8,792 nt of DNA from Victivallales bacterium (GTDB lineage: Bacteria > Verrucomicrobiota > Lentisphaeria > Oligosphaerales > Oligosphaeraceae), in contig JAFRLP010000425.1 in NCBI GenBank assembly GCA_017431185.1, positions 1 through 8,792 of the forward strand, read 5' to 3'. Under the pieces are notes generated by a model, which saw only the letters and a list, made by a program, of their open reading frames with translations, was not told where the DNA came from and did not search any database. Positions 1-8,792 of this stretch are shown one piece after another. Each line of letters opens with the position of its first letter. Positions within the stretch are counted from its first letter, which is position 1. Made by a program: the position numbers and the translations under genes.

Positions 1-168
1 AGCGTCAGCGACACCCTGTCACGGAGCGTCAGCGACACCCTGTCACGGAGCGTCAGCGACACCCTGTCACGGAGCGTCAGCGACACCTTGTCACGGAGCG
101 TCAGCGACACCCTGTCACGGAGCGTCAGCGACACCTTGTCACGGAGCGTCAGCGACACCCTGTCACGG
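1..168 (+). repeat. 24-bp tandem repeat, seven copies, coding
   Basis: Seven head-to-tail copies of a 24-bp unit fill the first 168 bases. Copies 4 and 6 differ from the others by one silent base (CTG to TTG at 88 and 136). The unit is a multiple of three and encodes the octapeptide SVSDTLSR in the frame of the downstream tape-measure coding sequence, so copy number can change without a frameshift. The array probably continues upstream of the window. Confidence 0.97.
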
Positions 169-441
169 AGCGAAGAGTACGAACTTCTGTCGTATGACTT
201 CTCCGCGCATGGCATGGCAATGCAGCCGCCGAGCACGGGGGCATCGGGGGCTGGGAAAGCCTCCGCGCCGAATGTCACAGTCAACATCAACGACAACTCC
301 GGCGCGGAGACCACCAAGACCGTCAACCAGCGGGAGGACGACGACGGCAACCTCATCATCGACGTGGTGATAGACGCGCTCGCACGCAACAAACGCGGCT
401 TCCGCCGCACCCTCCGCCAGTATGCCGGAGGAAACGCATAA
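1..441 (+). CDS. Tail tape measure protein, C-terminal fragment (lambda gpH-like)
   Basis: The frame is open from base 1 to the TAA at 439-441, so this is the 3' end of a gene starting upstream. The visible 146 residues begin with seven SVSDTLSR octapeptides, then a linker rich in Ala, Gly, Ser and Pro, then a terminal segment around VTVNINDNSGAET, an acidic stretch, and DVVIDALARNKRGFRRTLRQ. That ending (VNI.NNSG followed by IDVVIDAL) is familiar from the C-termini of lambda-type tape measure proteins. These span the tail tube, set tail length and pass into the host envelope at injection. The position just before M-, L-, K- and J-like genes supports the call. The octapeptide array is unusual so near the C-terminus. 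A TTG at 88 could be mistaken for a start, but nothing suggests translation begins inside the array. The family call rests on pattern recognition of a fragment, not on an alignment. Confidence 0.75.
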   Translation, partial: SVSDTLSRSVSDTLSRSVSDTLSRSVSDTLSRSVSDTLSRSVSDTLSRSVSDTLSRSEEYELLSYDFSAHGMAMQPPSTGASGAGKASAPNVTVNINDNSGAETTKTVNQREDDDGNLIIDVVIDALARNKRGFRRTLRQYAGGNA

Positions 442-445
442 GGAG
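440..445 (+). promoter_or_regulatory. Ribosome binding site that fixes the M-like start at 455
   Basis: AAGGAG lies 9 nt before the ATG at 455 and overlaps the TAA of the tape measure gene. An in-frame ATG at 422 would lie inside the preceding gene without such a site, so 455 is the better start. Confidence 0.8.
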
Positions 446-454
446 ATTCCCCCC

Positions 455-3202
455 ATGCCATATCCCAGCTTCCCCGACATCCAGGCACCCGACATGAACG
501 GCGGCATCCAGGAGGAGACCTACCGCCCGCTGCGCCGCACCGAGTTCGAGGGCAACACCACCGCAGTCCGCGCGCGCTCCGTCCGCGCGCGCAAACGCTG
601 GACGCTCAAGTGGTCGAAGCTCCCGCAGGCCGACTACGACGCGCTCCGCGCCTTCTTCGCAGACCGCCAGGGGTCCCCGTTCTCCTGGCACAACGTATCC
701 GATGGATACCAGTACACCGTCGTCTTCTCCGACGACCAGCTCCGGGCATCCTCCGCCATCTACGACGGCGCCACCGCGTCCATGCGCTACTCCGTCCAGA
801 CCGCAGTCGAGGAATGCGTCGCAGAATGGCAGTTCGCAGCCGAGGACAGCAATGCGGTCTATGACGGCCCGCCAATCGTTCTCAAGCTCTTCGTTACGCC
901 GGGACAGACTGTTTCCTTCGTCGCCGACTCGCTGTGTTCAATCGACTGGGGCGACGGAGACACGGAGACCGATTCAGGCGACCCCATCTCCCATGAATAC
1001 GAGAACGGCGGGAACTACACCCTAAAGGTCACGCCGAGTGCAGGATTAGAGGAACTGAACTTCTCCGGTCTGGGAGCCGCCCTCGTTGAGATCGTCCGCT
1101 GGGACGTGCCGGAGACCGTCACCTCCTTCCGCGGGATGTTCAGGGGCGCGTCACTGACCAGCCTCCCCCTCTTCAATCTCCACCACAACGCCGTGGAAGA
1201 CGTGTCGGAGGAATTCGACGGATGCCTCCTGCTGGAGAGCCTCGGCGGGCTGACCAACCCCGACTCCGTGGCCAACGCCTACGCGCAATTTTACGAATGC
1301 GTCTCGTTGAAATATCTCAACGTCTTCACCAACGGCGCGAACACCGCCGACTGCTCGCTCCAGTTCTGCCGCTGCTATTCCCTGGAGGAAATACCAGACA
1401 CCTTCCGCAACGGCACGGGCGTGGTCACCATGGCGCAGCAGTTCGCTGGCGCGGGACTGACCTACGCCCCGTTCTACAACATCTTCCCCGCAGGGAAGAC
1501 GCCGCTCCAGTGCCGATGGGCGTTCAGCGGCTGCCGCCGTCTTACGGGATTCGTCCCGCCTGAGCGCACCTGGCAGAGCAAACGGACGTTCCAGCACAAC
1601 CAGCTTGCCGCGCCGTTCCAGAACTGCACCGGCATCGACAACTACTACGACATGCCCGCCACCTGGAGCGGGCAGGACTTCACGCAGGAACAGGTCATCG
1701 CCGTCACGTTCGTGGACAACTCCGGCGTACTCGATTCCACGGTGAACGGCGACTTCACGTTCCACCTGCAAGCCGCGGAGACGGACGAGAACGACGTTAC
1801 CGTTACCGTCGCCTCCGGCATCGCCCCCGCAGTCACCCTCATCCGTGGGCAGGTGTACGAGGTCATCCCGCCGGAGGGGTACGCCAAGGTCTTCCGCGCC
1901 AGATTCTATCCGGCCACCGTTTTCTCGGACAGGGAGGCGGAGCTAGAATCAACGTTCAACGCTGGCAGGGGCGTCCACTCCATTGAACTGCTCGCCGTTC
2001 CGTCTGCCTGCCGTGCGGTTTACAAGGTGAAATTCACATCGGATGTGGCTCACCACGACCAGAAAATCCTCACCTTCAAAACCTCAAGCTATCCATCCGA
2101 CCAGAGCGTCAAGGTATCGTGGGGGGACGGAACGGTGGACTACGCCGACGCGTCGTCCCCCAGGTCGTGGCAGCCGGAGCATACATTCGCCGACGGCGAG
2201 TACATCGTCATGATCTGGTCGCCGAATTGCAGTCGTACCATGCTTACAGACGCAACTACAGGTGCCACGACGGCTGAAGCAGATGCAAGAACAGCGCCTT
2301 ATGGACAGCACATTGTGGAATTGTACTGGTACTACTGTACTACAGACATGACCAGGGCTTTCATGAACTGCAAATTCACGAAGTTGCCGGATGATTTTGA
2401 ATTCCGAAATGCTGTCAACGGCATCAAGGAATGCTTTTTCAACGTCCCGATGTCCGAAATCCCCGACAACTTATTTGACGCTTTCACATCCGGCACCAAA
2501 TCGGTTTCGAACGCCTTCCGCGTGGACACATGGGATGCCGGCAGTTTCACCATCCCGGAACTTTGGAGCCGGACGGACGTGACCTTCACGAACCAATCGG
2601 ACTGCTTCACTGGCCGTGTCAATTCCCCAAACTTCAAGGCCGCCGTCGCCAACGGGTGGGCTGCGGACCCGCCAGTGGACGCATCGGACGAAAGTTCCGA
2701 AATCCGTTCCCTTGCGTCCGCGCTGGAGACCGCTGCGGAAGACCTCCACACCAGACTTGACGAGGGAGACCTGGACGAGGACAGCGACTGGCGGCCAGTC
2801 CGCAACGCCATCGAGTCTATGCGGAAGACCGCAGGGGAAATCGCCTGGCACCAGTGGCGGTACGTCAACGCGGGGAACCTGCTTCCCATCTACGCCTCGC
2901 AGTGGGCATTGGCCGATGGTGAAAATGAAATCCAGACAGAATTCATTGATGTCATATCAGAAACCAGATACTCAATTACACTCAATGCAGGATATAAGAT
3001 GACGTTAAGATATTACAGCGCCGATGATGTTCTTAGAGATGCTTTTGTTTATAACGCAACGGTTGGCGGCACGACATATCATACTACCGCCAGCAATGTC
3101 GCAAAAGTGCAAGTCATGTTGTCACTCCTTTCAGGAGAGGACATTTCCGCTTCACAGTTGACTTTGGACGCGGCCTCGCCGCGGATGGAGGTGGCCCCAT
3201 GA
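455..3202 (+). CDS. gpM-like minor tail protein fused to PKD-like and BspA/DUF285-like repeat modules
   Basis: A 915-residue protein where lambda has the 109-residue tail-tip protein M. Residues ~1-130 resemble the M/distal-tail fold (RRTEFEGNTTAVRARSVRAR, RKRWTLKWSKLP, FADRQGSPFSWHNVSDG, ending at CVAEWQF). The rest is extension. A PKD-like domain (~140-195, WGDG at 165-168) precedes a repeat block (~197-400) in which Phe recurs at 229, 254, 279, 304, 330, 357 and 388, often followed by a Cys and Leu motif as in BspA/DUF285 surface proteins. A beta-rich spacer follows (~405-515). A second PKD-like domain (~521-590, WGDG at 556-559) precedes a shorter repeat block (Phe at 636, 661/662, 688, 718). 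After a predicted helical linker (~745-800), the beta-rich terminal domain (~805-915) is encoded by clearly lower-GC DNA. Expected location is the tail tip. I infer the extension binds host-surface or mucosal ligands. The stop overlaps the next start by 4 nt. Confidence 0.72.
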   Translation: MPYPSFPDIQAPDMNGGIQEETYRPLRRTEFEGNTTAVRARSVRARKRWTLKWSKLPQADYDALRAFFADRQGSPFSWHNVSDGYQYTVVFSDDQLRASSAIYDGATASMRYSVQTAVEECVAEWQFAAEDSNAVYDGPPIVLKLFVTPGQTVSFVADSLCSIDWGDGDTETDSGDPISHEYENGGNYTLKVTPSAGLEELNFSGLGAALVEIVRWDVPETVTSFRGMFRGASLTSLPLFNLHHNAVEDVSEEFDGCLLLESLGGLTNPDSVANAYAQFYECVSLKYLNVFTNGANTADCSLQFCRCYSLEEIPDTFRNGTGVVTMAQQFAGAGLTYAPFYNIFPAGKTPLQCRWAFSGCRRLTGFVPPERTWQSKRTFQHNQLAAPFQNCTGIDNYYDMPATWSGQDFTQEQVIAVTFVDNSGVLDSTVNGDFTFHLQAAETDENDVTVTVASGIAPAVTLIRGQVYEVIPPEGYAKVFRARFYPATVFSDREAELESTFNAGRGVHSIELLAVPSACRAVYKVKFTSDVAHHDQKILTFKTSSYPSDQSVKVSWGDGTVDYADASSPRSWQPEHTFADGEYIVMIWSPNCSRTMLTDATTGATTAEADARTAPYGQHIVELYWYYCTTDMTRAFMNCKFTKLPDDFEFRNAVNGIKECFFNVPMSEIPDNLFDAFTSGTKSVSNAFRVDTWDAGSFTIPELWSRTDVTFTNQSDCFTGRVNSPNFKAAVANGWAADPPVDASDESSEIRSLASALETAAEDLHTRLDEGDLDEDSDWRPVRNAIESMRKTAGEIAWHQWRYVNAGNLLPIYASQWALADGENEIQTEFIDVISETRYSITLNAGYKMTLRYYSADDVLRDAFVYNATVGGTTYHTTASNVAKVQVMLSLLSGEDISASQLTLDAASPRMEVAP

Positions 3203-4089
3203 GGATACTGACAACAGGCGCGGCGGAGGACATCGCCAGGGCGGCCGGCGGCGACTGCTGGTTCGAGCTGCTCGACGTAAACCTCGGTGAAAATTACGGC
3301 GACATGCTCGACAACTGGCGGCATGAGGCCCCGGATGCGTATGCCCAGTTGAAATGCCGTCTGCTCTGCCATACCGTCACAAAGACCACGCCGGGATACA
3401 CGGGGGGAATCGCGGACGGGCATCTGCTGCTCGTCAACGCCGACATCCCCGTGCTGGAGGAAGCACCCAGCATCACTTGGGAGCAGGCCGAGGACAATCC
3501 TGACATTGAAGACGTTGACTATTGGGAAAACGCCGAGACCGACGAAATCACCGGCAAGCTACACTGGCCGACACCGTATGCCCGCGACGCTTCGGCGCAG
3601 GCACAGGGGGCGGACGGTGCGCAGACCATGCAGATACGTCTTGGCGACCCTTCCGGCGCACTCTGGCAGTTCGTTCTCGCGGCGGGGGGACTGCGGGGGT
3701 GCGCCGCCACGCTTTCTCTCGCCCGCCTAAAGGAGTATCCATGGAACACGGGGCCAGACGGCTCCCCCCTCGAAGTCCAGCCAGGAAAAACAGTGACCGC
3801 CGCGCTCGCCTTCCCAGCCGAGGTCTCCGTCGAGTACACCATCCGTTCCTGCGCCACGGACGGGACGAGCTTCACCTTCAACCTCTCCACCGACAACCCG
3901 TTTTCCCGCCAGTGCCCCCCGCGCAGAATGTACAAGGCACGCTGCCGCTGGGTATTCAAGTCGCCCGAATGCGGATACGCTGGAAACGCCGACTCCTGCG
4001 ACCGCACCATCGCAGACTGCCGCGCAAAGAACAACATCGCCCGCATCGGATGCTTCCCCGGCTGCGGGACGGGAGGGCTGGCCCAATGA
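3199..4089 (+). CDS. gpL-like minor tail protein with Fe-S-type cysteine domain
   Basis: A 296-residue protein starting at ATG 3199, overlapping the previous stop by 4 nt (ATGA), with GGAGG just upstream. The C-terminal part has the layout of the lambda gpL tail-tip family: RRMYKARCRW, then ECGYAGNADSCDRTIADC, then a RNN-like segment (KNNIARIGCFPG). The best conserved-looking cysteines are C249, C258, C267 and C274; C239, C285 and C289 are additional. Lambda gpL is known to bind an iron-sulfur cluster through C-terminal cysteines, and this protein keeps enough for the same role. The N-terminal half holds a beta-rich domain and a segment around 92-145 rich in Asp, Glu and Ala that may be an insertion, since lambda gpL is shorter (about 230 residues). 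It should sit in the tail tip between the M-like protein and the J-like hub, and its place between M-like and K-like genes supports this. Confidence 0.8.
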   Translation: MRILTTGAAEDIARAAGGDCWFELLDVNLGENYGDMLDNWRHEAPDAYAQLKCRLLCHTVTKTTPGYTGGIADGHLLLVNADIPVLEEAPSITWEQAEDNPDIEDVDYWENAETDEITGKLHWPTPYARDASAQAQGADGAQTMQIRLGDPSGALWQFVLAAGGLRGCAATLSLARLKEYPWNTGPDGSPLEVQPGKTVTAALAFPAEVSVEYTIRSCATDGTSFTFNLSTDNPFSRQCPPRRMYKARCRWVFKSPECGYAGNADSCDRTIADCRAKNNIARIGCFPGCGTGGLAQ

Positions 4090-4478
4090 TGCCTCCTGAA
4101 CTGGCGTCGCTTTCCCGCGTGAAATACCTGGAGGGCGGGCGGGACCCCGCCACCGGCCTCGACTGCTGGGGCTTCTACCGTGAAGCCTGCCGCGTCCTGT
4201 CCCTGCCCGTGCCGCCAGTCCACCAGGTAGAGGGAAAGGAGGGGTATGCCGCAGAATGGGCGAAGGCCGCCGCATCCCCCGAATGGCGTCGCATCATCAT
4301 CCCCGAACCGTACTGCCTCGTATTGCTCACGCGCCCGGGGCGCAACCCGCACTGCGGAATGGTGCTTCCCGACCTCTTCACCTTCGTCCATCTCGGAGCG
4401 CAGGGCGTCCGCCGCGACTACCTGGACTGCGCACAGTTCCGCCTCGCCAGAAAGGAGTATTTCCGATATGTCCCCTGA
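4086..4478 (+). CDS. gpK-like tail assembly protein, NlpC/P60 cysteine peptidase family
   Basis: A 130-residue protein. Two consecutive ATG codons (4086 and 4089) could start it. The first overlaps the gpL-like stop by 4 nt in the same ATGA pattern as the previous junction, so 4086 is chosen. NlpC/P60 features are compact but complete: Cys27 in GLDCWGFYREAC is the nucleophile candidate, His89 in NPHCGMVL the catalytic base, and His102 in FVHLG the third polar residue. The 13-residue spacing of the two histidines fits known NlpC/P60 enzymes. In lambda-like phages the gpK protein acts in tail-tip assembly and may cut peptidoglycan peptide cross-links during DNA entry. Lambda gpK also has an N-terminal JAB/MPN-like domain, and this protein has only the NlpC/P60 part. 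It overlaps the next gene by 11 nt, so coupled translation is likely. Confidence 0.82.
   Translation: MMPPELASLSRVKYLEGGRDPATGLDCWGFYREACRVLSLPVPPVHQVEGKEGYAAEWAKAAASPEWRRIIIPEPYCLVLLTRPGRNPHCGMVLPDLFTFVHLGAQGVRRDYLDCAQFRLARKEYFRYVP
4451..4457 (+). promoter_or_regulatory. Ribosome binding site that fixes the J-like start at 4468
   Basis: AAAGGAG sits 10 nt before the ATG at 4468, inside the end of the gpK-like gene. The reading frame of the J-like gene is open further upstream (an ATG at 4246), but that part overlaps the gpK-like gene and reads as low-complexity shadow sequence. 4468 is therefore the supported start. Confidence 0.8.
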
Positions 4479-7134
4479 CCGCAGAATCACCGTCTCCGCC
4501 CGTTCCCTCGCACGGAGCGAGACAGTCCCCGCATACGCATCCCCCGCCGCCACCGCCAGGCAGGTGCTGGAGGCCACGTTCCCGTACCGCAGGTTCACCC
4601 GCTTCGCCATCGACGGCGTGGAATGCAAGCCCGACACCTCCATCGGCCAGGCGACGCACGTGGCCGGATGGGAGATGCCCGCCGGACTGGAGCCAGCCAC
4701 ATGGGCGTTGATTGGCAAGATTGCCCTCTATGTCGCTGTGTCCGCGGCAGTATCCGCAGTTGGATACTTCGTCAATAAGCGGGCAATGGCCAAGATGGGG
4801 AAATACAAGAAGAGCGACGAGGAGACCTCCGACACAAACTACGGTTGGGACTACGACGCATCCAACGCCGAGCAGGAGGGGGCGCCGGTGCCGGTGCTCT
4901 ACGGTCGCCGCCTGGTCATCCCGCCTGTCGCATCACAGCGGGTGCATGACGTGAACGAAACCCGCCAGTCGTTCCTCGACTGCACATACGCGGTAGCCGA
5001 CGGCGGAGCGGGGTTCTCCGACGTGATAGCCTACGAGAGCGAGGGGGATTCAAAGTTCTACGCCCGCGTTGACCACACTCCCTGGGAGAACCTCAACAAG
5101 GGAACCACATCCGCGTCTGCGGGCGACAACTGGCGAACCTTCGCCGCCATCTACGGTGAAATATTCACCAGCGTCCCGAAAAGCTCCTGGCAGTCCGGCA
5201 CGTTCTCCGGCGGGGACCGCCGCGACAAGCTAACCGACGGCGACCTCAACGAGGAAGACGAATTCAAAACGGGAGACCTCTATCTCCACTTCTCCCGCCC
5301 CATCAGCATCGACAAGGTGGTGATGTACACCCGCTGCAAGAAGGACAGGTATTTCTGGGGGAACTTCACCCTGGAAGGCCTGGACAACATCGGCGAGGGA
5401 CAGACTGCCCGCTGGACATCCATCAGCGGGGCAAGCGCCTGGTATTGGGCCGACGCGGACCGCAAGGCGATATTCCCTTCCGGCAAGGAAATCATAATAG
5501 TCACGCATTTCACCGCCAACGGAACCGACACTGTGAAGCGGCAGCACTACAGGATACATCGGAAATCCATCATGAAGGTGAACAAGATAGACCGCAGCAA
5601 CGTGAATCAGATGGTGAAGGCTTCAGGAGCGGGAGCGTCTGAAGCGAAATGCCACGTCACCGAGGTCCGCGTCGGCGGCGCATATACCGACGCAGGCTCT
5701 GCGGTCGGTGGCGGATACATCGCCCTGGAGGCCACTGCAGGGAGATTCGACGAGACACCGACCACGTTCCAGACCGGCACCTGGAGCGGCCTCAATGTCT
5801 CGAAGTATTTGGAGACCGAATGGTTCGCCTTCGCCACCACCCCTGTCGCCTATCCAGACCACGCCTCCATCCGTCTCGCCTTCCCGTATGGATGCTACAA
5901 GATTGACGACGAGACGGGAGACCTGGTGAACTCCTACGCCACCGTCTCCGCCGAGTATCGTGCTGTTTCCGCCGACGGCACGTTCGGGCCATGGACGAAT
6001 TTCTTTATCTCATCCCACGCCGACACTGGCATCAACTACAACAACGACGGCTCCATCACCATCGGCCTCTCCACCCAGAACGCCATCCATCTGACCTTCC
6101 AGCGGGACGGCGTCGGGAACGGAGCCGCACGCCTTGAGGTCAGGGTGAAGCGGAGCGACGTTCCGGCGGATTCGTCCATGGAGCAGAACACCTGCCAGTG
6201 GGAGATTCTGGAGGAGGGCTGGGCGTTCGTCCCCGCCTATCCCCGCACCGCAACCGCCGTGGTGCAGATGAACGCCAGCGAGAAATTCAACGGCAGGCTT
6301 CCGCAGTTCTCCATCCTCGCCCGCCGCTCCACCGTCTATGTCTGGAACCCGATACAGGGGGCATGGGAGGAACACGCAGCCGACAACCCAGCATGGGCGG
6401 CCTACGACCTCATAGTACGTCCACGCTTCGACGACATCAACCACGACTCCCCCGACGAATCAGGCGCCCTCCTGCGCGAGACCTTCCCCCATGACAAGAT
6501 GCTCTACGGCGAATTCGCCGCATGGTCCGAGTTCTGCGACGACAACGGCATCGTCTGCGCCATGTACTACGACGCGCAATCCACCATGGAAAAGGGTGTC
6601 CAGTACCTCTGCGACATCGGACGCGCCCAGCTTGTACTCAAGGGAGGCAGGATCGGCGTCGCCGTTGACAAGCGTGCCGACTTGGACGCTTCGGGCAGCC
6701 CCGTCCCGGTGTTCACATTCGACGACTCCAACATCGTCGCCGAATCCTGGTCAGTCCAGTTCCGCGACCGCGCCGACCTCCCCACGGAATACGAGGTCAC
6801 CTTCTTCGACCGCGACCGCGAATGGAACCGCTTCACCGTCGTCTCCCGCGACCCGGAGCTGGACAACGAGGCCACCGCCCAGAACGTCCAGAGCGTCACC
6901 CTCTACGCCTGCGACCGACGCGACGTGGCGCAGGCGTTCGCCGAATACGCCATCAGGCAGAACATGGTGTCCAGGACCTACGCCTGGAGCGGCGGCCTGT
7001 CGGCCATGCCCGTCGAGATCGGCGACATCGTTTCCCTCAAGGGAGACCTCGTCCGCGTCACCGCCGTCTCCGTCGAGGAGGACTTCACCCGCAAGTACGA
7101 GGGCGTGGAGTACGTGGACGCACGGTTCGCGTGA
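4468..7134 (+). CDS. gpJ-like central tail tip/hub protein with fused gpI-like N-terminus
   Basis: An 888-residue protein in the position of lambda I plus J. Residues ~1-75 look like the small alpha/beta domain typical of I-like proteins, and ~78-104 form a hydrophobic segment (ALIGKIALYVAVSAAVSAVG). The J core opens with APVPVLYGRRLVIPPV at 139-154. Residues ~235-366 look like an inserted F5/8 type C (discoidin)-like beta domain (KLTDGDL, DLYLHFSRPISIDKVVMY, FTLEGLDN, WTSISG, HYRIHR). The core resumes with AYPRTATAVVQMNASEKFNG (~590-609) and DNPAWAAYDLIVRPRF (~639-654), both strongly reminiscent of the phage-tail_3/J hub family. It ends with the hub's last beta domain (MPVEIGDIVSLKGDLVRVTAV, then VEYVDARFA). 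Lambda gpJ is 1132 residues and continues with fibronectin-like and host-specificity domains, which are absent here. It should form the central spike base closing the tail tube. No obvious terminator follows. Confidence 0.82.
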   Translation: MSPDRRITVSARSLARSETVPAYASPAATARQVLEATFPYRRFTRFAIDGVECKPDTSIGQATHVAGWEMPAGLEPATWALIGKIALYVAVSAAVSAVGYFVNKRAMAKMGKYKKSDEETSDTNYGWDYDASNAEQEGAPVPVLYGRRLVIPPVASQRVHDVNETRQSFLDCTYAVADGGAGFSDVIAYESEGDSKFYARVDHTPWENLNKGTTSASAGDNWRTFAAIYGEIFTSVPKSSWQSGTFSGGDRRDKLTDGDLNEEDEFKTGDLYLHFSRPISIDKVVMYTRCKKDRYFWGNFTLEGLDNIGEGQTARWTSISGASAWYWADADRKAIFPSGKEIIIVTHFTANGTDTVKRQHYRIHRKSIMKVNKIDRSNVNQMVKASGAGASEAKCHVTEVRVGGAYTDAGSAVGGGYIALEATAGRFDETPTTFQTGTWSGLNVSKYLETEWFAFATTPVAYPDHASIRLAFPYGCYKIDDETGDLVNSYATVSAEYRAVSADGTFGPWTNFFISSHADTGINYNNDGSITIGLSTQNAIHLTFQRDGVGNGAARLEVRVKRSDVPADSSMEQNTCQWEILEEGWAFVPAYPRTATAVVQMNASEKFNGRLPQFSILARRSTVYVWNPIQGAWEEHAADNPAWAAYDLIVRPRFDDINHDSPDESGALLRETFPHDKMLYGEFAAWSEFCDDNGIVCAMYYDAQSTMEKGVQYLCDIGRAQLVLKGGRIGVAVDKRADLDASGSPVPVFTFDDSNIVAESWSVQFRDRADLPTEYEVTFFDRDREWNRFTVVSRDPELDNEATAQNVQSVTLYACDRRDVAQAFAEYAIRQNMVSRTYAWSGGLSAMPVEIGDIVSLKGDLVRVTAVSVEEDFTRKYEGVEYVDARFA

Positions 7135-7150
7135 CGCTCGAAGCCGGTGG

Positions 7151-7474
7151 CTAGAAAAGCCCGTCGCCGGGGGTGGAGTTGTCCCTGAAGTCATGGAAAT
7201 GGCGATAGCGCGGATGCCGCACCCGCATGAGAGCCCGATTTGGCTTCATCCCGTGCCCGAGGCCAAGGAACGCCTTCAGGTCCTCCCAGGCCATCCTGGA
7301 CTTGTTTGGGCGTCCAAGCGCAATCCACCGTTTATCGGTTCTCCTCTGGATTTCCTTCATCTTCTTCGGCCAATAGTCGAAGAAAAACCACACGAAAAGA
7401 ATGAGGAAGGAAAGGGCGATTGGAAGGGCGCAGTGGTTTTCGGCTTCCGCAAGAAAAAGAAGTCCTGTCATCAT
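7151..7474 (-). CDS. Small single-pass membrane protein, unknown function
   Basis: A 107-residue protein on the strand opposite the tail operon, converging with the J-like gene across 16 nt. Two ATG codons are adjacent (7474 and 7471, reading leftward), and AGGAG lies about 8 nt upstream, so 7474 is taken as the start. Residues ~16-34 form a strongly hydrophobic helix (PIALSFLILFVWFFFDYW) followed by the basic KKMKEIQRR, predicting a cytoplasmic C-terminus. The C-terminal ~70 residues are rich in Arg, Lys and His. I do not recognise the family. In a temperate phage, a small leftward membrane gene between late and early regions could be a lysogenic-conversion or superinfection-exclusion gene, or a lysis accessory, but nothing in the sequence decides this. 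Support comes from the ribosome site, the helix and two upstream promoter candidates. Confidence 0.6.
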   Translation of the reverse strand: MMTGLLFLAEAENHCALPIALSFLILFVWFFFDYWPKKMKEIQRRTDKRWIALGRPNKSRMAWEDLKAFLGLGHGMKPNRALMRVRHPRYRHFHDFRDNSTPGDGLF

Positions 7475-7534
7475 GTCTGCTCTCCTGAACGTAATTCAAA
7501 TCGCCGGAATGTGATTTTGAAAAACAAGGCCTGT

Positions 7535-7563
7535 GATATACACCAAAGCAAGGTCTGTGCCAA
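7535..7563 (-). promoter_or_regulatory. Candidate sigma-70-type promoter, leftward
   Basis: Read on the minus strand, TTGGCA (7558-7563) is separated by 17 nt from TATATC (7535-7540). It would give a leader of about 50 nt to the membrane-protein start at 7474. The -35 matches consensus at 5 of 6 bases and the -10 at 4 of 6. Confidence 0.4.
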
Positions 7564-7651
7564 GAAAAGGAAGAATGTCAAAACGCAGAGCGGCCTCTGT
7601 CTTGATGTTGGCGTAAGTCCTTGCTGGACAATCTATTAACTAATCAAACAG

Positions 7652-7767
7652 TGTCCCAGGAAAACGTTCCTTATTATTGTACAATCTTTTTCTGAATTTT
7701 CAAGCAGGAAAACCATTTTTTTTGATTTTTTTTCGTGTCCCAAAATAAGGAACGTTTTTTGGGGACA
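7652..7767. repeat. Inverted repeat, 24-bp arms at 7652-7675 and 7744-7767
   Basis: The left arm begins TGTCCC and ends AAAACGTTCCTTATT. The reverse complement of the right arm begins TGTCCCC and ends with the same 15 bases. The arms match at 21 of 24 positions and are separated by 68 nt. The right arm also has a local partner: TGTCCCAAAA at 7736-7745 can pair with TTTTGGGGACA at 7757-7767 with one bulge. The sites may be paired repressor operators, or alternative RNA structures upstream of the rightward gene. Confidence 0.8.
7676..7733 (-). promoter_or_regulatory. Candidate strong leftward promoter with A-tract (UP-like) element
   Basis: On the minus strand, TTGAAA (7698-7703) lies 16 nt from TACAAT (7676-7681); each differs from consensus at one base. 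Two A8 runs on this strand (7716-7723 and 7726-7733) fall at about -47 to -64 from the expected start near 7669, the usual place for an UP element. The left arm of the inverted repeat covers the expected start site, as an operator would. The transcript would run toward the gene at 7474-7151 with a leader of about 195 nt. Confidence 0.5.
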
Positions 7768-7783
7768 ATTTTTCAGCAAGCGC

Positions 7784-7789
7784 AAGGAG
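7784..7789 (+). promoter_or_regulatory. Ribosome binding site for the 57-residue membrane protein
   Basis: AAGGAG lies 6 nt before ATG 7796 and is the main reason to accept this short gene. Confidence 0.7.
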
Positions 7790-7795
7790 AAAAAG

Positions 7796-7969
7796 ATGGA
7801 CTTTCTGGACAAGGTGATTCTCGCCGGCATCGCTGTGCCTGTGATTTCAATGGCGTTTTTTGGGGCAGTATGGGCGGTTGGGCGCTCGCTGCTCTTCTTT
7901 GTGGAGAAAACCGGTTGTCGGGAGAGAGCGCAAGACTGTGAAGGTGGGATTGGGAGCATTGGCCGATGA
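7796..7969 (+). CDS. Small membrane protein (57 residues), unknown function
   Basis: The protein starts MDFLDKVILAGIAVPVISMA and ends at TGA 7967-7969. Residues ~7-37 form one long hydrophobic segment (VILAGIAVPVISMAFFGAVW, continuing through a GR pair to LLFFV), followed by a polar tail with two cysteines (C41, C48). The start has a well-spaced AAGGAG. It lies divergent from the leftward membrane gene, with the inverted repeat ending 28 nt upstream of its ATG. One transmembrane segment with short ends would suit a holin-like, toxin-like or regulatory micropeptide, but I do not recognise the family and the tail module gives no further clue. The longer overlapping frames on both strands lack this combination of ribosome site and membrane segment. 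Confidence 0.55.
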   Translation: MDFLDKVILAGIAVPVISMAFFGAVWAVGRSLLFFVEKTGCRERAQDCEGGIGSIGR

Positions 7970-7979
7970 TGTGCATTCG

Positions 7980-8040
7980 CCAGCCTGTTCCGCTCTTTTA
8001 TTTCCATGAAAGGTCCTTTTTCAAGCGGAATCGTGGCTGG
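7980..8040 (+). other. Extended imperfect hairpin
   Basis: CCAGCC (7980-7985) pairs with GGCTGG (8035-8040), and TTCCGCT (7988-7994) with AGCGGAA (8024-8030), giving 13 perfect pairs broken by a 2 x 4 internal loop. The 29-nt apical loop can fold further (AAAG/CTTT). It begins 10 nt after the stop of the 57-residue gene. Confidence 0.6.
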
Positions 8041-8066
8041 AAGCCGTGCGGGAGCGCGGCGGACGC

Positions 8067-8104
8067 GCCGGGCCACGTCCAAATCGCGGCAACCCGGCTT
8101 TTTT
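8067..8104 (+). terminator. Candidate intrinsic terminator or attenuator
   Basis: GCCGGG (8067-8072) pairs with CCCGGC (8093-8098) and is followed at once by six T (8099-8104). The 20-nt loop is longer than usual, so efficiency is uncertain. It could end the transcript of the upstream small gene or attenuate transcription into the SSB-like gene. Confidence 0.5.
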
Positions 8105-8242
8105 CCGATGGTCGGCGAGTGGCAAGTGATTCGCTTTCCCGACGGCTTCGCAGTCGGGTGACTGGGGAATACGCACACGGGGCACGCCGCGCCCTTCGCT
8201 CTCCGCCCCAGCAGAACACGGAGGGCAGTTCACAACTACTCG

Positions 8243-8275
8243 CGCCCGGCGGGTTGCGTCAGCGGCGACCGGGCG
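8243..8275 (+). promoter_or_regulatory. Stable hairpin in the 5' leader of the SSB-like gene
   Basis: CGCCCGG (8243-8249) pairs perfectly with CCGGGCG (8269-8275). Inside, GUUGC can pair with GCGGC around a GUCA tetraloop. No T run follows, so it is not a terminator. It ends 19 nt before the AAAGGAG ribosome site, where it could affect initiation or mRNA stability. Confidence 0.5.
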
Positions 8276-8308
8276 ACTTTCCCAGGGAAGATTCAAAGGA
8301 GCATGACA

Positions 8309-8792
8309 ATGGCGATTGCGGAGTTGAACGAGTTCAGGGTGCAGGGCACCGTGACCGGCTGGCCTAGGCAGGGGCGTTTCCAGGATGGGATGCCATACCT
8401 TGAGATAAGCGTCGAGAACCTGACCAGGATGCCGATTGACGGGAAGCCTCCAATGGTCGGCACGTTCCAGCTGACGGTCTATGGGGAGGACATACAGAGG
8501 TTCTCCACTCTGGCGCCGGGGCAGCAGGTGCTTGCGTCAGGGTATCTCAAGAGCAGGGCGGTGACCAGCCAGCGTTCCGGCGACACCTACCACAGGGTTA
8601 GCATGGCGGTGCGAAGCCTGGTGCTTCTTCCCCAGCAGTACCAGCAGCAGGGGCAGTACCAGCAGTACCAGCAGCCACCCCAGCAGTACCAGCAGCCACC
8701 CCAGCAGTACCAGCAGCCACCCCAGCAGTACCAGCAGCCACCCCAGCAGTACCAGCAGCCACCCCAGCAGTACCAGCAGCAGGGGCAGCAGC
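8309..8792 (+). CDS. OB-fold single-stranded-DNA-binding-like protein, 3' end outside window
   Basis: The frame is open from ATG 8309 to the window end (161 codons seen). AAAGGAG (8295-8301) is 7 nt from this ATG. An in-frame ATG at 8303 is only 1 nt from the site and is rejected. Residues ~5-108 have the strand pattern of an SSB OB fold: NEFRVQGTVTGWPRQG, MPYLEISVENLTR, TFQLTVYGEDIQRFSTL, then PGQQVLASGYLKSR and YHRVSMAVRSLVLL, the last matching the usual strand that closes the barrel. From ~109 onward it is a Gln/Tyr/Pro/Gly linker made of QQYQQPP repeats, like the disordered tails of bacterial and phage SSBs. An acidic tip, if present, lies beyond the window. Likely role: coating single-stranded DNA in phage replication or recombination. 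The OB core is not a textbook SSB, so a related OB-fold replication protein is possible. Confidence 0.65.
   Translation, partial: MAIAELNEFRVQGTVTGWPRQGRFQDGMPYLEISVENLTRMPIDGKPPMVGTFQLTVYGEDIQRFSTLAPGQQVLASGYLKSRAVTSQRSGDTYHRVSMAVRSLVLLPQQYQQQGQYQQYQQPPQQYQQPPQQYQQPPQQYQQPPQQYQQPPQQYQQQGQQ
8660..8764 (+). repeat. 21-bp tandem repeat, five perfect copies, coding
   Basis: Five identical copies of CAG CAG TAC CAG CAG CCA CCC encode QQYQQPP. Degenerate copies flank the array on both sides (8633-8659 and 8765-8792). Copies are identical at the nucleotide level, pointing to recent slippage or unequal recombination rather than selection on protein sequence alone. Confidence 0.95.

Follow-up and report, generated by a model that had tools for sequence, protein, structure and literature searches.

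Can the ring of a lambda-type phage tail anchor a long, adhesin-like arm, and what would such an arm do? This question is raised by an 8,792-nucleotide stretch of DNA (the window) assigned to a Victivallales bacterium (contig JAFRLP010000425.1), in which an open reading frame of 915 codons occupies the place of lambda gene M. According to the accessible text of one report (PMC10721106), six copies of lambda gpM, the distal tail protein, form the ring between tail tube and hub. Here, we propose as the probable reading of this locus that the 915-aa product is an extended gpM-type distal tail protein, with adhesin arms taking over some of the work of a missing J fibre.

Genetic organization of the locus

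The window displays the gene order H-M-L-K-I/J, all on the plus strand, with the 915-aa ORF at the lambda M position between the tape measure and L. The 3' end of the tape-measure (H) gene (1..441, open at its 5' side) matches a family of unknown function (phrog_22443, E 2.6e-5) and is named from gene order. Downstream of the 915-aa ORF are the hub gene L (3199..4089; phrog_18, E 1.9e-10; Phage_tail_L, E 4.4e-5, below cut-off), whose product has four Cys in common with lambda gpL in the alignment, a K-type NlpC/P60 gene (4086..4478; phrog_329, E 2.7e-11; NLPC_P60 only at E 0.057), and a fused I/J gene of 888 aa (4468..7134; phrog_31, E 3.5e-46; phrog_32, E 3.4e-4). Residues 202 to 366 or so of the I/J product (5071-5565) belong to none of the segments aligned with relatives by BLASTP and look discoidin-like by eye; a sugar-binding domain suspected there was rejected, as this region had no Pfam match and PDB matches at chance level.

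The margins of the window are repetitive. Positions 1-172, at the end of the tape-measure gene, hold seven 24-bp direct repeats (97% matches; TRF 7.2 copies) coding for SVSDTLSR, and positions 8659-8780, at the opposite edge, are likewise a tandem repeat, so that both ends of the window may be assembly breaks. Past J, GC falls to about 0.46-0.49 (7135-8300), and the window closes on a gene for an SSB-like protein whose tail repeats QYQQPPQ in tandem (8303-8792; PF00436, E 4.2e-4, below cut-off). None of the six ORFs tested downstream of J had a confident family; one of 57 aa (7796-7969) is membrane-like, with a weak resemblance to CcoM (0.0017, below cut-off).

A single gene of 915 codons

The 915-residue ORF (455..3202) is a real gene, as originally predicted. 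Its frame is uninterrupted, an AAGGAG ribosome-binding-like site (440..445, located by sequence inspection and by script) precedes the ATG, and its TGA overlaps the start of L as ATGA (3199-3202); with such a site at one end and this overlap at the other, both gene edges fit a tail operon. Within the ORF, in-frame start codons with a ribosome-binding-like site occur at three places, namely the M start and residues 709 and 849, which rules out the arm as a separate internal gene.

An assembly or sequencing artefact, by which an M gene was wrongly joined to an unrelated surface-protein gene, would agree with the occurrence of the protein on one contig only and with a drop in GC3 over residues ~490-915. 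Nine 140-codon windows over residues 491-910 range from 0.586 to 0.757, eight of them lower than any of the 91 windows taken from L, K and I/J (minimum 0.721), and values over residues 1-595 are 0.771-0.886. However, the frame is open throughout, with operon-like signals at both edges, and the GC3 shift lies inside the arm instead of at the M-arm junction, so that we regard an artefact as very improbable. This drop in GC3 could mean that the arm acquired its distal half later.

A gpM-type ring domain at the N-terminus

Residues 1-130 (455..844) match PHROG families 384 (E 2.5e-7) and 14 (E 3.6e-4). In hhalign, this domain reaches 93.8% with nickie-type M, versus 0.07% with the L family in the same comparison. 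Taken alone, it does not reach lambda-like M (1.8%), and the link to the latter runs via nickie-type M, which aligns with lambda-like M at 50.7% (E 1.6e-4). DUF2460 was detected on the protein at E 0.0074, below cut-off. The predicted structure (mean pLDDT 70.9, pTM 0.61) is a beta-sandwich flanked by a single helix, the arrangement seen in gpM, and lambda gpM (8iyk) is the closest PDB fold to the model of residues 1-135; eight of the 12 rows in the underlying alignment are lambda-like M sequences, which could bias the fold towards gpM. With family matches, hhalign and modelled fold in agreement, we assign residues 1 to ~125 to the gpM/distal-tail ring domain. The M-like N-terminal domain of the original prediction is thereby borne out, including its structural match to gpM-like proteins, and an M assignment resting on gene order alone is rejected.

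Modular composition of the arm

The ring domain is followed by a first PKD-like domain (residues 138-196; 866..1042) that is modelled well (pLDDT 80-92 by blocks of ten) and carries one of the two WGDG motifs already noticed, at residues 165 and 556. Its match to PKD_4 (residues 162-193, E 4.3e-5) scores 23.9 bits, below the curated cut-off of 27. Next comes a leucine-rich-repeat (LRR) block of the BspA type (residues 197-405; 1043..1669), with pLDDT of 66-96 by blocks of ten to about residue 367 and lower values beyond; the fold matches of its model are LRR folds, including 4fdw. Phe residues stand at positions 229, 254, 279, 304, 330 and 357, as first reported, and additionally at 203 and 388, in keeping with the BspA-type repeat of ~25-26 residues with a conserved Phe. 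The longest chain with a spacing of 24-27 in residues 197-405 counts seven Phe, from 203 to 357, and was equalled in 1 of 2000 shuffles (6 of 2000 over residues 131-915). The proposed period of ~25 holds in this form, but 25 does not stand out in a plain autocorrelation of Phe in residues 145-420, where lag 13 scores highest (z 3.4) and lags 26 and 25 reach z of 2.6 and 1.7.

Database searches with residues 138-420 retrieved 29 other proteins at E<=1 (21 at E<=0.001; best 3.7e-19), 24 of which contain DUF285. On the window protein itself, DUF285 remains below its curated cut-off of 25 bits (whole protein, E 0.12 and 12.6 bits; fragment, E 0.028 and 14.6 bits), and for this reason the resemblance to BspA/DUF285 proteins, which had been called a signature, rests on relatives and predicted LRR-like fold instead. 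The same succession of WGDG/PKD then LRR is found in BspA-type surface proteins, namely P0006, proteins of a Coriobacteriia metagenome-assembled genome (MAG) in L001 and phage proteins in L089-L114, and the C-terminal end of P0006 resembles, by eye, window residues 388-404 (FQNCTGIDNYYDMPATW). Based on these relatives and on the models, residues 138-405 are interpreted as a PKD plus BspA-type LRR module. The L001 genome (isolate Th196P4bin28) holds a row of PKD-LRR proteins at 201-12876; the C-termini of three of them (P0003-P0005) look dockerin-like by eye.

Confidence decreases along the rest of the arm, and 401 of the 778 residues in the arm model have a pLDDT under 50. A linker (residues 406-520; 1670..2014), with no Pfam match and a pLDDT mostly about 30, leads to a likely second PKD-like domain (residues 521-600; 2015..2254). 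This assignment draws on the alignment with the first PKD domain (28% over 46 residues; E 0.006, for a single comparison), the second WGDG and modelled strands (pLDDT 52-81 by blocks of ten). A Pfam search of residues 521-740 gave no match at E<=5. Thus, of the two PKD-like domains that had been proposed, the first has its family match, below cut-off, and the second is likely by alignment and strands. The second Phe/Leu block, proposed by eye at residues 601-740 (2255..2674), could not be established: the longest Phe chain in residues 605-740 is three, equalled in 932 of 2000 shuffles and so not above chance, and the pLDDT is under 50. The C-terminus (residues 741-915; 2675..3199), low in GC3, is modelled with low confidence as two long helices (near residues 745-804, pLDDT about 40-66) and then strands; it gave no Pfam or PHROG match, and its best tblastn hit in phages had an E of 0.6. 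For the arm model as a whole, Foldseek against the PDB found nothing at E<=0.001 (best 0.16).

Distribution of extended M proteins and PKD-LRR modules

M-type genes were surveyed by ORF length. Of the 107 distinct contigs in which this ORF is complete, many of them closely related and from enterobacterial phages, a single one carries an extended version, that of Shigella phage Sf11 (457 aa). Of the loci found through L, 78 of 80 have an ORF of 109-128 aa at the M position, the remaining two being L034, with only non-M-like ORFs, and one without any. The seven loci found through nickie-type M encode M proteins of 118-123 aa (three of these contigs were already among the earlier loci), and the 26 found through Sf11 contribute 24 complete ORFs, of which 23 have 156-173 aa and the last is Sf11 itself. 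The suggested search for M-like proteins with long C-terminal extensions thus yielded one case, and none with a window-type arm; neither database nor locus searches found an M protein with this arm among the relatives.

Conversely, window-like PKD-LRR modules were identified in 26 viral loci, none of whose proteins scores as M (best E 1.4), nor does any of the relatives' proteins compared. Among 20 such proteins scanned, three have a structural PHROG (baseplate wedge in L109, virion structural in L108, tail protein in L101), the match of L091 to a minor-head family is weak, no single stretch of it passing alone, and four have no PHROG match. A search of the open literature for LRR on a distal tail protein, or for PKD, LRR and tail fibre together, found nothing, which applies to open papers and is not absence in print. 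The 1059-aa viral protein of L101 (3862-7041), which has a PKD-LRR end, and the appendage of the Sf11 protein gp17 (L122:13880-15253) have PHROGs 5939 and 34853 in common, hinting, at the level of family matches, that tail decorations are drawn from a shared pool.

A short J protein and the possible role of the arm

In the fused I/J protein, Phage-tail_3 spans residues 704-867 (E 5.7e-16) and the protein ends 21 residues later. Past this end, MAFFT alignment shows 697, 503 and 482 more residues in the three nearest complete relatives (L086, L087 and L088, respectively) and 535 in lambda J. A tail family was sought in five ORFs and in the plus-strand frame 7136-7636, downstream to the SSB-like gene, and none was found; tblastn with lambda I and J and the J proteins of the relatives as queries gave a best E of 0.053 in the sequence downstream of the window J. 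Pfam and PHROG searches of the window picked out no gene for a spike or fibre, and another receptor-binding gene may lie outside it.

Beyond the gene continuity, gene order, ring-domain family, first PKD-LRR module and short J established above, we infer a hexamer with outward, adhesive arms that replace the fibre in part. By analogy with lambda, the ring domain would assemble into a hexamer joining tail tube and hub, from which six arms of ~785 residues would radiate outward, each with a putative PKD spacer, the BspA-type LRR, a second PKD-like domain and an uncharacterised helix-plus-strand end. The arms might be first to touch the host surface, on a sugar or a protein, and, since J does not continue past its hub part, they probably do part of the work of the absent J fibre. 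For mucus binding, which was also proposed, no support was found. In a more radical version, the fibre and receptor-binding part of J has been lost and adhesion falls solely to a crown of six PKD-LRR arms borne by M, which would have turned a central-fibre phage into a ring-arm phage while keeping the lambda gene order of the tail tip; we consider this version conceivable, at perhaps one chance in a few. The combination of short J and long M suggests that central fibre and ring-borne arm trade off against each other, a pattern to be sought in other phages.

Two other functions can be envisaged for the arm. It might mainly be a docking platform that holds a separate spike or fibre encoded elsewhere, itself without host contact. 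Sf11 gp17 and T5 Dit do hold spikes or fibres, according to the accessible part of PMC12724387, an adaptor helix serving the tailspikes in the former, and two long helices are modelled near the end of the window arm. However, neither a spike nor a fibre gene could be recognised beside it in the window, and the PKD-LRR module is nearer to adhesin-like surface proteins than to an adaptor helix, which leaves docking unlikely. Somewhat less likely still is a loose, general and dispensable attachment (to biofilm, particles or gut glycans), the true receptor being recognised by something else. The presence of PKD-LRR modules on varied phage proteins would suit such a role, as would the report, in the available text of PMC7291167, that evolved Dits bind the host of the main receptor-binding protein at lower affinity; yet, with J so short, the window offers no other obvious adhesin. 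We favour arms that share in host adhesion and probably do part of the work of the J fibre.

Comparison with known decorated ring proteins

Lambda gpM has the gene position of the window protein and its closest solved ring fold, but consists of a ring only (109 aa) and shows no significant direct sequence alignment with the window domain. As gpM is the distal tail protein, the ring is not the unexpected place for a binding module that it was first thought to be; in the texts accessible to us, decorated rings are already described (evolved Dits, Sf11 and LSH1), and the window protein is a variant of these.

In phages of Gram-positive bacteria, evolved Dits have carbohydrate-binding modules (CBMs) inserted in galectin-domain loops (PMC7291167, in part). 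Infection of a lactococcal host that bears exopolysaccharide was improved by cloning one such Dit, and these proteins aid adsorption in lactococcal phages (PMC10688798, in part). They resemble the window protein in having an extra module fused to the distal tail ring, and by analogy the latter would work like an evolved Dit; it is not filed as one because its PKD-LRR module sits at the C-terminus of a lambda-type ring and a Pfam search for a CBM in the arm gave no match. Gp24 of Alishewanella phage LSH1 is a decorated gpM homologue (PMC13243795, in part), with a galactose-binding-like domain that is N-terminal, in contrast to the C-terminal arm of the window.

The nearest parallel in overall design is Sf11 gp17 (MF158038), a distal tail protein of 457 aa whose structure was solved. 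In the accessible text of PMC12724387, the ring consists of six copies, six tailspike trimers are held by a helix that directly follows the ring part, and a large C-terminal appendage of unclear purpose, according to its authors, leads away from the tail; to their knowledge, gp17 is among the largest distal tail proteins resolved. Both proteins have a PHROG 384 ring (gp17 residues 1-156, E 2.8e-46) with a C-terminal extension, and the Sf11 hub 2, of only 828 aa, is short like the window J. BLASTP of window proteins against Sf11 gp17 and gp14 found no meaningful similarity, and the gp17 appendage matches PHROGs 11600, 5939 and 34853 instead of PKD-LRR. With twice the size of gp17 and a recognisable adhesin-like module, the window protein makes the question of the Sf11 appendage testable, in the form of a ring C-terminus serving as a site for swappable adhesins.
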